A stretch of DNA of 64,000 bases, taken from the NCBI GenBank assembly GCA_947453945.1, contig CANGJB010000010.1:1-64000 (forward strand). Direction: 5' to 3'. Origin of the DNA: Sphingomonadaceae bacterium. Lineage in GTDB: Bacteria; Pseudomonadota; Alphaproteobacteria; Sphingomonadales; Sphingomonadaceae. Shown one piece after another: positions 39,813-45,016 of the stretch. Position 1 is the first letter of the stretch. Each line of letters starts with the position of its first letter. The notes beneath the pieces are model-generated. The model was not told the DNA's origin and did not search any database. It saw only the letters and a program-made list of their open reading frames with translations. Made by a program: the position numbers and the translations under genes.

Positions 39813-40493
39813 CTAGGTGAGGGCGGCGGCGCCCAGTTCGGCGTCCACGTCGGCAGGAGCCGCTCCGCAGTGGGTGCAGATGAAGCGCACGGCGGATTGG
39901 TACCGCCCGAGCGCATCCGCCGGATCGGCATATCCGGCAATCTCCAGGCCGACCAGGCCGTGCATCTGGCCCCAAACCAGGAAGGCAAGGTCCTGCACTT
40001 GAGCGGGATCAGGCGCGGATGCGTGGTGGTGGATCATGCACGCGCCGACAGCATCGACCAGCGCGGCGAAGGCGGGGTAGGCATCCTCTACCGGGGCGGC
40101 AAGCGAGGCGAAGCGGCTGTTGCGCCCGGTGGGGGTGAAGCGCTTCTCGCCGCCGAACATCAGGCGGTAGAGCCCGGTGTGATCGAGCGCGAAGCGGCGG
40201 TAGGCAAGCATCTGGCGGACCAGCCAGCGCAGCGGTGCCTCGCGCGCTTCGGCGGAGAGCGCATAGGCGTGGAGCCGCGCAAAGCCGAGCACATAGAGCG
40301 CCTCCATCAATCCCGGCTTGCCGCCGAACAGCGTGTAGATCGCCATGGTGGAGGACCCGCAGGCGCGCGCCAGTTCGCGCAGCGAAAGGCCGTCCGGCCC
40401 ATGTTTGCGCACCAGCTTTTCGGCAGCGGCGAGCAGGCGTGTGCGCAAGTCCTCGCGGTCCGGCTCGTTTGGCTGTGTCGCTGGTTCGGGCAT
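39813..40493 (-). CDS. TetR/AcrR-family transcriptional regulator
   Basis: 'LLAAAEKLVRKHGPDGLSLRELARACGSSTMAIYTLFGGKPGLMEAL'. Confidence 0.92.
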   Translation of the reverse strand: MPEPATQPNEPDREDLRTRLLAAAEKLVRKHGPDGLSLRELARACGSSTMAIYTLFGGKPGLMEALYVLGFARLHAYALSAEAREAPLRWLVRQMLAYRRFALDHTGLYRLMFGGEKRFTPTGRNSRFASLAAPVEDAYPAFAALVDAVGACMIHHHASAPDPAQVQDLAFLVWGQMHGLVGLEIAGYADPADALGRYQSAVRFICTHCGAAPADVDAELGAAALT

Positions 40494-40532
40494 GCCGTTT
40501 CATGGCGGGTTGCGCGGGGGAATGCCAGTGCT

Positions 40533-40545
40533 ATAACACTGTTAT
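40533..40545. promoter_or_regulatory. Candidate TetR operator
   Basis: Perfect palindrome ATAACA-C-TGTTAT in the divergent promoter region. Confidence 0.55.
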
Positions 40546-40579
40546 TGATTCGAGGCGAGGCAAGCCGGGAGAGCAAGCC

Positions 40580-41473
40580 ATGGGAGAGCTGGGACAGCAT
40601 GCAGGTGCTGGCGCCATCACGCCGATCACTGTGCGACAGGGTGCGTTCGCCTTTGCGGACGAAACCCCGGCCCACTGGATACCGCATGCGCCCGAACTGG
40701 CGCAGATGATCAACGGCGCCTCGTTCGTGATGCCGCATCTTGAGCCGTTCCTCGTCGCCACGCTGGGCGAAGCGGCGAAGCTGATCGAAGATCCGGCGGT
40801 GCGGCGCGAGGCGCGCGATTTCTGCATGCAGGAGACGCAGCACTACCGCACGCACCGGCGCTTCAACGATGTGATCCTCGGGCAGGGGTATGGCGCGCTG
40901 GCCGAGATCGAGGCCGAGATGGCGCACTCCTATGCGCGGCTCTTGCAGCGCCCGCTGCCGGTGCGGCTGGCCTATGCGGCTGGGTTCGAGGCGATGACGC
41001 TGGGGCTGACCGAGTGGCTGGTGGGGCACCGTACCCGGCTGTTTCGCGGGGCGGACCCGCATGTCACCTCGTTCATCCTGTGGCATATGGTCGAGGAAAC
41101 CGAGCACAAGCTGGTTGCGCACGATGTCTATGAGGCTGTCTCGCCGGGATACTGGCGGCGGGCGTATGGCGTGCTGCACGGGTCGATCGATGTGATCCGC
41201 TGGGGCAGGCGCTGCTACCGCGCGCTGCTTTTGCAGGACGGGCGCTGGCGGCAACCGGCCTCGCGCCTCAAGGTGTGGTGGTGGGCGGCGCGGTTCCTCA
41301 TGGGCACGGGCCCTGCCTTGCTGCGCGCCATGGTGCCGGGGCACGATCCCCGCCAGGTGAAGGATCATCCGTGGGTGCGGGACTGGATCGCGGGGCACGA
41401 GCGTGCCGGGGAGCGCGGCGCGCCGATGCCGCTGATCGATACACAGAGCGCCGCGATGCCGGTGCCGTTCTGA
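40580..41473 (+). CDS. PF10118-type 'predicted metal-dependent hydrolase'; ferritin-like di-iron signature
   Basis: E55 / E85xxH88 ('MQETQHYRTHRRFN') / E137 / E173xxH176 ('VEETEHKLVAHDVY'), numbered from ATG at 40580. Confidence 0.75.
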   Translation: MGELGQHAGAGAITPITVRQGAFAFADETPAHWIPHAPELAQMINGASFVMPHLEPFLVATLGEAAKLIEDPAVRREARDFCMQETQHYRTHRRFNDVILGQGYGALAEIEAEMAHSYARLLQRPLPVRLAYAAGFEAMTLGLTEWLVGHRTRLFRGADPHVTSFILWHMVEETEHKLVAHDVYEAVSPGYWRRAYGVLHGSIDVIRWGRRCYRALLLQDGRWRQPASRLKVWWWAARFLMGTGPALLRAMVPGHDPRQVKDHPWVRDWIAGHERAGERGAPMPLIDTQSAAMPVPF

Positions 41474-41485
41474 GGGGGATTGAGG

Positions 41486-41965
41486 ATGGAAGGTTCGGAA
41501 CTGCGCCCGGTTCAGCGGATGCTGATCGTGCAGGGCGGCTACGTCATGCTGCTCGGCTTTGTCGCGGGGTTTGGCTTCGTGTTCTTCCTCATCGGTAGCA
41601 TCGAGCTCTGGCCGATTCCGGGCAAGATCGCGCTTCAGCTTCCGGGCAGCGACAAGGCCTGGCGGATGACACATATGGAAGGCGTGCTCAACGGGCTCAT
41701 GCTGTGGCTGCTCGCGGCGCTGCAACCGGCGATGGCGCTGCCGCTGGCGACTGCGCGGCGCATCGCGCGGATGCTTGTGCTGACGGCCTGGTGCTTCCCT
41801 ATCGCATCGCTGTTCGATGCGCTGTTCAAGGACAGCCGGGGCCTGAAATTTGCCGCGCCGGTGACAAACCTGATCCCGTTCTTCCTGTTTTATGTCGGCA
41901 TTATCGCGCTGGTGTGGGCGGTTGTGGAGATTGTGGTGCGGGTGCGCGCGCAGGGCGCGAGCTAG
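41486..41965 (+). CDS. Small integral membrane protein resembling styrene oxide isomerase (StyC-like)
   Basis: Four TM segments; 'LPGSDKAWRMTHMEGVLNGLML' resembles the StyC 'VPGSPEGWARAHSGPALNGMM' region (recalled, not searched). Confidence 0.55.
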   Translation: MEGSELRPVQRMLIVQGGYVMLLGFVAGFGFVFFLIGSIELWPIPGKIALQLPGSDKAWRMTHMEGVLNGLMLWLLAALQPAMALPLATARRIARMLVLTAWCFPIASLFDALFKDSRGLKFAAPVTNLIPFFLFYVGIIALVWAVVEIVVRVRAQGAS

Positions 41966-43374
41966 CCCTCCACGATCCGGTAGGGCACCAGATCGCGCTG
42001 GCTGGGGTCCACATCGATTGCCTTGTCGCTCGGCGGGAAAGCGCGCTGATCGCACTGCCCGCGCGGGCAGATGCGGCAGCTGATGCCTATGCGGGTGACC
42101 GCGTCGTCGCTCTTCAGGTTGAGACCATCGGCGTAGACAAACTCATCCGCCAGCGCGGCTTCGCAGCCCAGCACCACGGCATAGCGGCGCGGCTGGCGGT
42201 AGTAGCTGCCGCTGGGTTTCACGAGGCCCTTGGCGATCGAAACGTAGCGGATGCCATCAGGCATTTCGGCGAGCTGCACGTGGATGCGGTCTGGAATCGC
42301 GACAGCTTCGTGCACGATCCACAAGGGGCAGGCGCCGCCGAAGCGGCCGAACTGGAGGCGCGTGGCGGAGTGGCGCTTGGTGATGTTGCCCGCCATGTCG
42401 ACCCGCGCGAAGAAAACCGGAATGCCGCGCGCCTGGGGGCGTTGCAGGGTGGAAAGGCGGTGGCAGCACTGCTCGAAGCTCACGTGAAACAGTTGGCGCA
42501 GGCGGTCGATATCATGGCGCAGGCTGCGCGCGGCACTGCGGAAGCGCTCGTAAGGCATGAGGAGGGCACCTGCAGCATAGTTGCCGAGGCCCACGGTGAG
42601 GAGGTGGCGCGCAGCTTCGGTCTGCAAGGGCGCGGCGGCGACGATCTCGGCGATCTGGCCCGAAAGCGCGAGTGCGGCGGCTTGATAGGCCAACTGAAAG
42701 CGGCTGGATTCGTTGGGCTGGGCTGAATCGAGCTGGAGGTGGCGCGTCGCGGCATCGAAGCGGCGCAGGGGGCCGCCGCCTTTCCATTCGATGGTGACAC
42801 CTTCGCGCCGCAGCCATTGCTGCATGGTGCGGATGCGCGGGCTGGCCTCGTCGCCGGCGATCTCTTCGGCCAGCCGCTCGGCGTCGCGGTCTATCTGATC
42901 GACATAGTTGTTGGCAGCATGGAACCAGTCGCGCGCTTCCTCCCACGGCAGGCGGCCGCTCCCGATGTTGCCGGGAAGGCCTATCCCCTCGTCGACCATC
43001 TCGAGCCGCTGGCGACTGCGGGCGTAGAGACCGTGAAGCGCTACGAAGCGTTCGGCAAAGGCCGGGAACTGGCGGGCAAGGCGCTCGATCTGTTCGCCCG
43101 GAATGCCGCCGGAAAGTTCGGGATCGGCCAGCGCCTCACGTAGCGCCTCGGCCGTGCGGTCGCCGTCTGCGGGTTCGAGATCGGCCCAGTCGATTGGGAA
43201 GGCGGCGCGCAAGGCATCGCCCAGCGCGGAGGTGAGGTGGCGCTCGTCGGTCTCGAGCTGTGAGAGATAAGAAGCGCTGATGCCCAGCGTGCCCGCCATT
43301 TCGGCCTGGAGGAGGCCGCGCCGCTGGCGGAGCGCGCGCAGTGCGGGGCCTGCGAAGAGTCGGCGGTTGGACAT
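41962..43374 (-). CDS. Short-chain fatty acyl-CoA regulator (ScfR family; XRE HTH + ImmA/IrrE-like + DUF2083)
   Basis: 'GPALRALRQRRGLLQAEMAGTLGISASYLSQLETDERHL', C-terminal 'ISCRICPRGQCDQRAFP'. Confidence 0.9.
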   Translation of the reverse strand: MSNRRLFAGPALRALRQRRGLLQAEMAGTLGISASYLSQLETDERHLTSALGDALRAAFPIDWADLEPADGDRTAEALREALADPELSGGIPGEQIERLARQFPAFAERFVALHGLYARSRQRLEMVDEGIGLPGNIGSGRLPWEEARDWFHAANNYVDQIDRDAERLAEEIAGDEASPRIRTMQQWLRREGVTIEWKGGGPLRRFDAATRHLQLDSAQPNESSRFQLAYQAAALALSGQIAEIVAAAPLQTEAARHLLTVGLGNYAAGALLMPYERFRSAARSLRHDIDRLRQLFHVSFEQCCHRLSTLQRPQARGIPVFFARVDMAGNITKRHSATRLQFGRFGGACPLWIVHEAVAIPDRIHVQLAEMPDGIRYVSIAKGLVKPSGSYYRQPRRYAVVLGCEAALADEFVYADGLNLKSDDAVTRIGISCRICPRGQCDQRAFPPSDKAIDVDPSQRDLVPYRIVEG

Positions 43375-43489: not shown

Positions 43490-45016
43490 ATGTCAGCCAA
43501 TATCGCCGAAATGGAAAAGCGCCGCGAGGCGGCCCGCATGGGCGGCGGCCAGCGCCGCATCGATGCGCAGCACGCCAAGGGCAAGCTGACCGCGCGTGAG
43601 CGGCTCGATATCCTGCTCGATGAAGGCAGCTTCGAAGAGACTGACGCTTACGTCGAGCACAACTGCGTCGATTTCGGGATGCCCGAGCAGACCGTTCCGG
43701 GTGATGGTGTGGTGACGGGTTCGGGCACGATCAACGGCCGGCTGGTCTATGTATTCAGCCAGGATTTCACCGTGTTTGGCGGTGCGGTTTCAGAACGCCA
43801 CGCGATGAAGATCTGCAAGATCATGGATACTGCGCTGAAAGTGGGCGCGCCGGTGATCGGCCTCAACGATTCGGGCGGCGCGCGCATTCAGGAAGGCGTC
43901 GCCAGCCTTGGCGGCTATGCCGAAATCTTCCAGCGCAACGTGCTCGCCTCGGGCGTGGTGCCGCAGCTTTCCCTCATCATGGGGCCTTGCGCGGGCGGCG
44001 CGGTCTATTCGCCTGCGATGACCGACTTCATCTTCATGGTGAAGGACAGCTCCTACATGTTCGTCACCGGGCCGGACGTGGTGAAGACGGTGACCAACGA
44101 GATCGTCACGCAGGAAGAGCTGGGCGGCGCGGTGACGCATTCGACCAAGACCTCTGTGGCCGATCTCGCCTGCGAGAACGATATCGAAGCGCTGCTCATG
44201 GCGCGCGAGTTCTTCGATTACCTGCCGCTGACCAACCGCTCCGGCGTGCCTGAACGGCCGACGGCGGACGCGTGGGACCGGCTGGAGCCGAGCCTCGACA
44301 CGCTGATCCCGGCCTCGGCCAACCAGCCCTATGACATGCACGAGGTGATCGCCAAGACGCTCGACGAAGGCGAGTTCTTCGAGATCCAGCCCAAGCACGC
44401 TGCGAACATCATCTGCGGGTTTGGCCGGATCGAGGGCAAGACCGTGGGCGTGGTGGCGAACCAGCCGATGGTGCTGGCGGGCGTGCTCGATATCAATTCA
44501 TCGAAGAAGGCCGCGCGGTTCGTGCGCTTCTGCGATGCTTTCGAGATTCCGATCATCACGTTTGTCGATGTGCCGGGTTTCCTGCCGGGCACCGCGCAGG
44601 AACTGGGCGGGATCATCAAGCATGGCGCCAAGCTGCTGTTCGCCTATGCCGAAGCGACCGTGCCCAAGATCACCGTGATCACGCGCAAGGCCTATGGCGG
44701 CGCGTATGACGTGATGGCCTCCAAGCACTTGCGCGGCGACCTCAACTACGCCTGGCCGACCGCCGAGATCGCGGTGATGGGCGCGAAGGGCGCGGTGGAG
44801 ATCATCTTCCGCGGGCTTTCGACCGAAGAGCAGGCGGTGAAGACCAAGGAATACGAGGACCGCTTCGCCAACCCGTTCGTGGCGGCGAGCAAGGGCTTCA
44901 TCGACGAGGTGATCCATCCGCATTCGACGCGGCGGCGCATTGCGCTGGGGCTGCGCAAGCTGCGGAACAAGAGCCTCGAGAACCCGTGGAAGAAGCACGA
45001 CAATATTCCGCTGTGA
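43490..45016 (+). CDS. pccB: Propionyl-CoA carboxylase beta subunit
   Basis: '[25 protein letters not shown]', '[23 protein letters not shown]', '[19 protein letters not shown]'. Confidence 0.95.

Follow-up and report, generated by a model that had tools for sequence, protein, structure and literature searches.

The locus described here lies within a stretch of 64,000 nucleotides from a Sphingomonadaceae bacterium (the window, i.e. the whole stretch of DNA analysed) and comprises a regulator gene, a short intergenic promoter and two closely spaced structural genes, as follows.

39813-40493, minus strand: TetR-family regulator, 226 aa (Pfam PF00440 and PF13305)
40533-40545, no strand assigned: perfect palindrome ATAACA-C-TGTTAT (ATAACAcTGTTAT), candidate TetR operator, in the divergent promoter
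40580-41473, plus strand: PF10118 protein of 297 aa, predicted to be a soluble, helical di-iron carboxylate oxygenase (Pfam, AlphaFold, Foldseek)
41486-41965, plus strand: styrene oxide isomerase (SOI)-like four-helix membrane protein, 159 aa, Glu-type (NF045734, Foldseek match to 8pnu, AlphaFold)

The coordinates confirm the arrangement given in the initial annotation, namely a TetR gene diverging from two genes 12 nt apart: the stop codon of the PF10118 gene precedes the SOI-like gene by 12 nt, both on the plus strand, and 86 nt of shared promoter separate the PF10118 gene from the regulator gene on the minus strand. Each gene of the pair is present in one copy in its own genome (86% complete), for which the nearest named relative is a Novosphingobium MAG (L017) with an SOI-like protein 93% identical to that of the window. 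Chance adjacency of the two genes was considered and rejected, both being single-copy in the genome and the pairing being kept in distant genomes. The convergent neighbour (41962-43374, minus strand) resembles a ScfR-type short-chain fatty acyl-CoA regulator, and the equivalent gene beside the pair of the Novosphingobium MAG matches PF09856 (ScfRs) and HTH_3. Next to the ScfR-like gene lies a carboxyltransferase gene (43490-45016), by eye like propionyl-CoA carboxylase beta, and sucCD-like genes, also judged by eye, are found upstream.

The regulator combines a TetR_N domain (PF00440, E 8e-10, 38.8 bits against a cut-off of 24) with TetR_C_33 (PF13305, E 3e-14). The palindrome ATAACAcTGTTAT has its sole match in the window at the divergent promoter (0 expected), and it is identical in the Novosphingobium MAG and absent from L018-L020. 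This candidate is probably the TetR operator, and ATAACACTGTTAT is proposed as a candidate target sequence of the regulator. A TetR_C_33 regulator likewise accompanies the pair in L019, and related PF10118 genes have one as neighbour in L136 and L138, the last of which carries TTTAACAGTGTTAAA. Other branches of the pair are accompanied by PF13972-type TetR or by PadR regulators, and since the type of regulator varies in this manner among branches, the regulator stands outside the conserved unit.

The first product of the pair is a full-length member of the Pfam family PF10118 (Metal_hydrol), with a match at E 3e-52 and 178.2 bits against a gathering cut-off of 33.2 bits. The AlphaFold model computed with 64 sequences is helical (pLDDT 92.5, pTM 0.90) and, when compared with the PDB by Foldseek, solely R2, R2lox, CmlI and aldehyde-deformylating types were found among the 50 matches listed. 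The best match was 1xsm at a probability of 1.00, although the E-values are at least 0.02 and the TM-scores below 0.5; the aldehyde-deformylating enzyme 5ux2 ranked far below the R2 and R2lox matches. With these match types, the di-metal fold of ferritin-like proteins suspected for this product finds support at that level of similarity. Neither the single protein nor a profile retrieved relatives from the PDB by sequence, which suggests a separate family of R2/R2lox-type fold. An R2 protein for a profile comparison was sought in the own genome and none was found.

In known R2-like oxidases, in R2 itself and in CmlI/AurF-type N-oxygenases, the metal ligands follow the order E / ExxH / E / ExxH. 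The same carboxylate signature, which had been recognised by inspection, is present in the window protein at the positions listed below, none of which varies among the 64 paired relatives or the 13 distant PF10118 proteins that were compared.

40742-40744, plus strand: E55, predicted metal ligand, helix 1
40832-40843, plus strand: E85xxH88, predicted metal ligands, helix 2
40988-40990, plus strand: E137, predicted metal ligand
41096-41107, plus strand: E173xxH176, predicted metal ligands

The nearby H169 and E175 are likewise invariant in the 64 paired relatives and the 13 distant PF10118 proteins, and conservation of the signature in both sets argues against its being due to chance. The name of the Pfam family and the record annotation would instead suggest a true metal-dependent hydrolase, the neighbourhood then reflecting a hydrolytic step; however, the predicted fold and the ligand pattern resemble those known from ferritin-like di-metal oxygenases, no experiment in favour of a hydrolase was found in the limited collection of literature searched, and we regard this reading as very improbable. 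In the same limited collection, neither a function for PF10118 nor a link to SOI was described, the family being mentioned once in passing. The model and the ligands point to a ferritin-like di-iron carboxylate oxygenase rather than a hydrolase.

The second product matches the NCBIfam model of StyC (NF045734) at E 5e-16 and 59 bits, below the equivalog cut-off of 150 bits, whereas the true StyC at L013 scores 215 bits on the same model; no Pfam family was matched. A sequence search of the PDB detected the SOI structure 8pnu at E 2e-8. The single-chain AlphaFold model, computed with 85 relatives, has four long helices (pLDDT 94.6) and, in Foldseek, 8pnu was the sole PDB match with E below 0.001 (E 7e-7, TM 0.80/0.82, rmsd 2.1). 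The resemblance to styrene oxide isomerase, proposed at the outset for the gene at 41486-41965, is borne out by this structural match. According to the model the protein has the SOI (StyC) fold, yet it falls outside the NF045734 equivalog. The SOI-fold superfamily is characterised by trimers with haem b at the interface, and StyC itself turns styrene oxide into phenylacetaldehyde. A true styrene pathway was rejected, the score being under the StyC cut-off and no StyA having been found in the genome (86% complete); the lack of a StyA match implies that this is not styrene degradation as known.

For the comparison of individual residues, StyC of Pseudomonas sp. VLB120 (L156), the enzyme of PMC11374702, served as alignment reference, and its numbering agrees with that paper. 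The following correspondences were obtained.

41672-41674, plus strand: H63, equivalent to the StyC haem axial ligand H58; His in 86 of 86 sequences
41678-41680, plus strand: E65, Glu in 74 of 74 Glu-type sequences where StyC has Gly60; it precedes N69 by one helix turn
41690-41692, plus strand: N69, equivalent to StyC N64 (alignment)
41783-41809, plus strand: T100, F104 and S108, replacing StyC D95, N99 and Y103 (alignment)
41837-41839, plus strand: R118, equivalent to StyC R112 (haem propionate); Arg in 85 of 86 sequences and Lys in 1

The initial annotation had noted the StyC spacing of His and Asn and the loss of the StyC Asp and Tyr positions. Both observations hold in the alignment, with H58 on H63, N64 on N69, D95 on T100 and Y103 on S108, and N99 is found to be lost as well (F104), so that of the StyC substrate network N64, D95, N99 and Y103 the window protein retains N64 only. 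PMC11374702 and PMC12502698 show H58 (Pseudomonas) or H57 (Rhodococcus) as the SOI haem ligand, and in the latter R111 is thought to hold a haem propionate. The Rhodococcus enzyme stayed active as D94A and lost activity in H57A/C alone (PMC12502698), whereas the N99 and Y103 alanine mutants of the Pseudomonas enzyme were inactive (PMC11374702). Loss of the Asp alone therefore says little, and the absence of N99 and Y103 carries more weight.

The replacement follows a regular pattern. Among 86 sequences of the SOI superfamily, Glu65 occurs in 74, none of which has Tyr108, and Gly65 in 12, all with Tyr108; one locus set was collected with a DNA pattern that admitted only E or G at position 65, and the loci obtained by BLAST or profile, where this filter was absent, agree with the split. 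The Tyr-type includes StyC (Y103 with Gly60; 12 of 12) and the Glu-type includes the window protein (74 of 74), while two later sequences, L166 and L167, are also Tyr-type. This two-way division of the superfamily, as defined on aligned residues, is new here, and the Glu-type is not discussed in the available excerpts of published SOI work. Position 60 lies one helix turn before N64, and N64 belongs to the hydrogen-bond network of Y103, so that Glu or Tyr may fill the same haem-side space; a Glu opposite a small residue and a Tyr opposite Gly may thus be two ways of occupying it. The Tyr-type forms one clade in the SOI tree, for which reason the division may reflect one evolutionary event. A remoter SOI-related family of about 145-187 aa (L161-L165 and L120), with a shorter first loop, carries the motif HLEG..NG, including in its members of about 145 aa (L161-L164, L120); its hosts are other Alphaproteobacteria and another class of the phylum.

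In the Glu-type, an invariant Glu at another position, not mentioned in the initial annotation, replaces the StyC Tyr, and the protein may therefore differ from StyC in chemistry or in substrate. Taken further, the Glu-type could carry out haem reactions of another kind, such as the handling of peroxides or electrophiles with Glu in acid-base catalysis, and the pair would then be a detoxification module. The invariance of E65 (74/74) with the loss of Tyr would fit, as would a small TetR-controlled module in a variable neighbourhood. We nevertheless consider it rather unlikely, since PF10118 and FMO-like partners are common to the Tyr-type and the Glu-type, and the same partners with both types argue for analogous roles.

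Co-occurrence of the two families, on which the proposed link between them depends, was found well beyond the window. A PF10118 gene adjoins 56 of 86 non-redundant SOI-like loci, in Alpha- and Gammaproteobacteria, after two weak family-search matches (L014 and L015) had been dropped as not SOI-like under the profile. The PF10118 gene comes first at 33 paired loci and the SOI-like gene at 21, one locus is divergent, and gaps are mostly below 100 nt. Besides that of the window, 13 SOI-like genes turned up in 299 genomes of its bacterial family; 12 have an adjacent PF10118 gene and the 13th belongs to a true StyABC operon. In a class-wide sample of 385 genomes, an SOI-like gene adjoins 20 of the 25 PF10118 genes belonging to this branch as against 0 of 37 more distant ones, counts that are not independent trials because the genomes are mutually related. 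Distances within the two protein sets are correlated (Mantel r 0.805, 0 of 2000 permutations), to which shared host ancestry contributes. The window PF10118 protein belongs to a branch that is for the most part devoted to SOI-like partners.

Hosts of the pair include Sphingomonadales, Parvibaculum and relatives, Nevskiaceae (Hydrocarboniphaga, Panacagrimonas), Paraglaciecola and others, with Panacagrimonas perspica and Parvibaculum indicum as examples of isolates that carry it. In the SOI tree, pairing with PF10118 is spread over several distinct clades, StyC's clade among them, and involves both types, the Tyr-type loci that keep Y103 being L016, L110, L114, L115, L122 and L124. SDR, alpha/beta-hydrolase and acyl-CoA genes are recurrent neighbours. 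When a conserved third gene was sought in the neighbour clusters, just differing regulators (TetR, PadR), SDRs and alpha/beta-hydrolases recurred, which leaves the pair as the unit. Local duplications were also seen, with an SOI-like gene tandemly duplicated behind a single PF10118 gene (L102:1498-2535, G307). PF10118 genes stand in tandem in G561 (L148) and likewise in G339 and G465, and these PF10118 tandems suggest local expansion or heteromers.

The remaining 30 of 86 SOI-like loci have no PF10118 neighbour, and at several of them a flavin oxygenase takes its place. The true StyC gene at L013 adjoins StyAB, an FAD_binding_3 monooxygenase-type protein is encoded beside the SOI-like gene at L026, and a luciferase-like monooxygenase at L031. 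FMO-like flavoproteins with weak matches to ArsO-type proteins and to 4a9w/4c5o were found at L037, L044, L047, L050 and L112, the calls at L037, L050 and L112 resting on weak Rossmann-domain matches. The flavoprotein of these last three loci has the motif GGHWN.AYPFV.LHQP.A.YGVNS and no Pfam family above cut-off. About 20 loci, many from Myxococcota, have no obvious adjacent oxygenase. The view that an oxygenated substrate comes from PF10118 rests chiefly on these replacements by flavin oxygenases, which also lend support to the order suggested in the initial annotation, of oxygenation followed by rearrangement.

PF10118 genes that have no SOI neighbour adjoin alcohol dehydrogenase, esterase or methyltransferase genes. 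Relatives of the window protein occur on 52 Acinetobacter plasmid records. On Acinetobacter plasmids a PF10118 gene adjoins P450, ferredoxin and FAD oxidoreductase genes and a TetR; at L157:3983-4852, for instance, a PF10118 'metal-dependent hydrolase' lies downstream of a P450, a 2Fe-2S ferredoxin and an FAD oxidoreductase, followed by TetR and thioesterases. A plasmid collection queried with P0002 and a relative gave no match.

These partners also bear on two other accounts of the pair. Cytochrome b5 passes electrons to desaturases, and the SOI-like protein could similarly be a membrane haem-b electron donor to the di-iron PF10118 protein and not an isomerase. The haem ligands are kept in this branch while the StyC catalytic Asn and Tyr are lost, no ferredoxin or reductase gene adjoins the window pair, and the pairing is tightly one-to-one. 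However, the single invariant His leads one to expect single-His and not bis-His haem, the partners of related SOI-like genes include StyAB and other flavin oxygenases, which do not require a haem donor, and the partners of PF10118 include Tyr-type SOI proteins keeping Y103; an electron-donor role is therefore judged unlikely. The steps could also run in reverse, the SOI-like protein converting an epoxide of other origin into an aldehyde on which PF10118 acts next in the manner of an aldehyde-deformylating enzyme. Both gene orders are found and 5ux2 is among the Foldseek matches, but its rank far below R2 and R2lox, together with the epoxidising or hydroxylating flavin oxygenases that fill PF10118's place in related loci, makes this order improbable.

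We lean, with moderate confidence, towards a TetR-controlled module of two genes, in which di-iron oxygenation would be followed by haem-dependent rearrangement. The PF10118 protein would activate O2 and oxygenate a lipophilic substrate, the simplest case being epoxidation of an alkene, and the reactive product would move into the SOI-like membrane protein. There H63 and R118 would hold haem b in the manner of StyC, and the ferric haem could act as a Lewis acid, converting the product within the membrane into an isomeric carbonyl compound, with E65 perhaps occupying, next to the sixth coordination site, the place that Tyr103 has in StyC. Until substrate or product appears, the TetR protein would repress the pair at ATAACAcTGTTAT. 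The absence of StyC N99 and Y103, and the weak Foldseek E-values and TM-scores below 0.5 of the PF10118 model, count against the module. So do the lack of a ferredoxin or reductase gene beside the window pair, the 30 of 86 SOI-like loci without PF10118, of which about 20 show no obvious oxygenase neighbour, the weak matches behind the flavoprotein calls at L037, L050 and L112, and the lack of a StyA match in the genome.

A broader proposal is plausible but distinctly tentative, namely that PF10118 comprises unrecognised di-iron oxygenases, of which the SOI-paired branch feeds new Glu-type haem membrane enzymes, where Glu replaces the StyC Tyr at the haem, for an undescribed rearrangement or other haem chemistry in a widespread alkene, terpenoid or lipid pathway. 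Enzymes catalysing the Meinwald rearrangement are very few, and the 2024 SOI structure paper names only SOI and PenF (PMC11374702). The present results indicate a much larger superfamily sharing the SOI haem site, mostly Glu-type, and link that superfamily to a protein family labelled as hydrolase but resembling di-iron oxygenases. The pair suggests an unrecognised two-step pathway in which a greasy molecule would be oxidised and its reactive product rearranged. If true, this could provide a function for PF10118, a second way for oxygenases to reach epoxide-type intermediates, and new biocatalysts for converting alkenes to carbonyl compounds.

Amongst known systems, the StyA/StyB and StyC module resembles the window pair in that an oxygenase gene adjoins that of a four-helix membrane protein of SOI fold, and the SOI-like protein shares with it the fold (TM 0.80 to 8pnu), the haem His and the propionate Arg. 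It is homologous to StyC over the four transmembrane helices (59 bits on NF045734), with 24% identity (36 of 149 aligned residues), but its substrate-positioning network is altered, D95, N99 and Y103 being absent and E65 present. The oxygenase of the window is of PF10118 di-iron type and not a two-component flavin enzyme, control is by TetR and not by StyS/StyR, and no StyA was found in the genome. With R2lox, R2 and CmlI/AurF-type proteins, the PF10118 protein shares the order E / ExxH / E / ExxH, and its predicted helical fold resembles theirs (Foldseek), although with no PDB sequence match and TM-scores below 0.5 it represents a separate uncharacterised family. Compared with PF10118 Metal_hydrol and COG3687, the 'predicted metal-dependent hydrolase', it is a full-length member (178 bits) for which the evidence points to an oxygenase.
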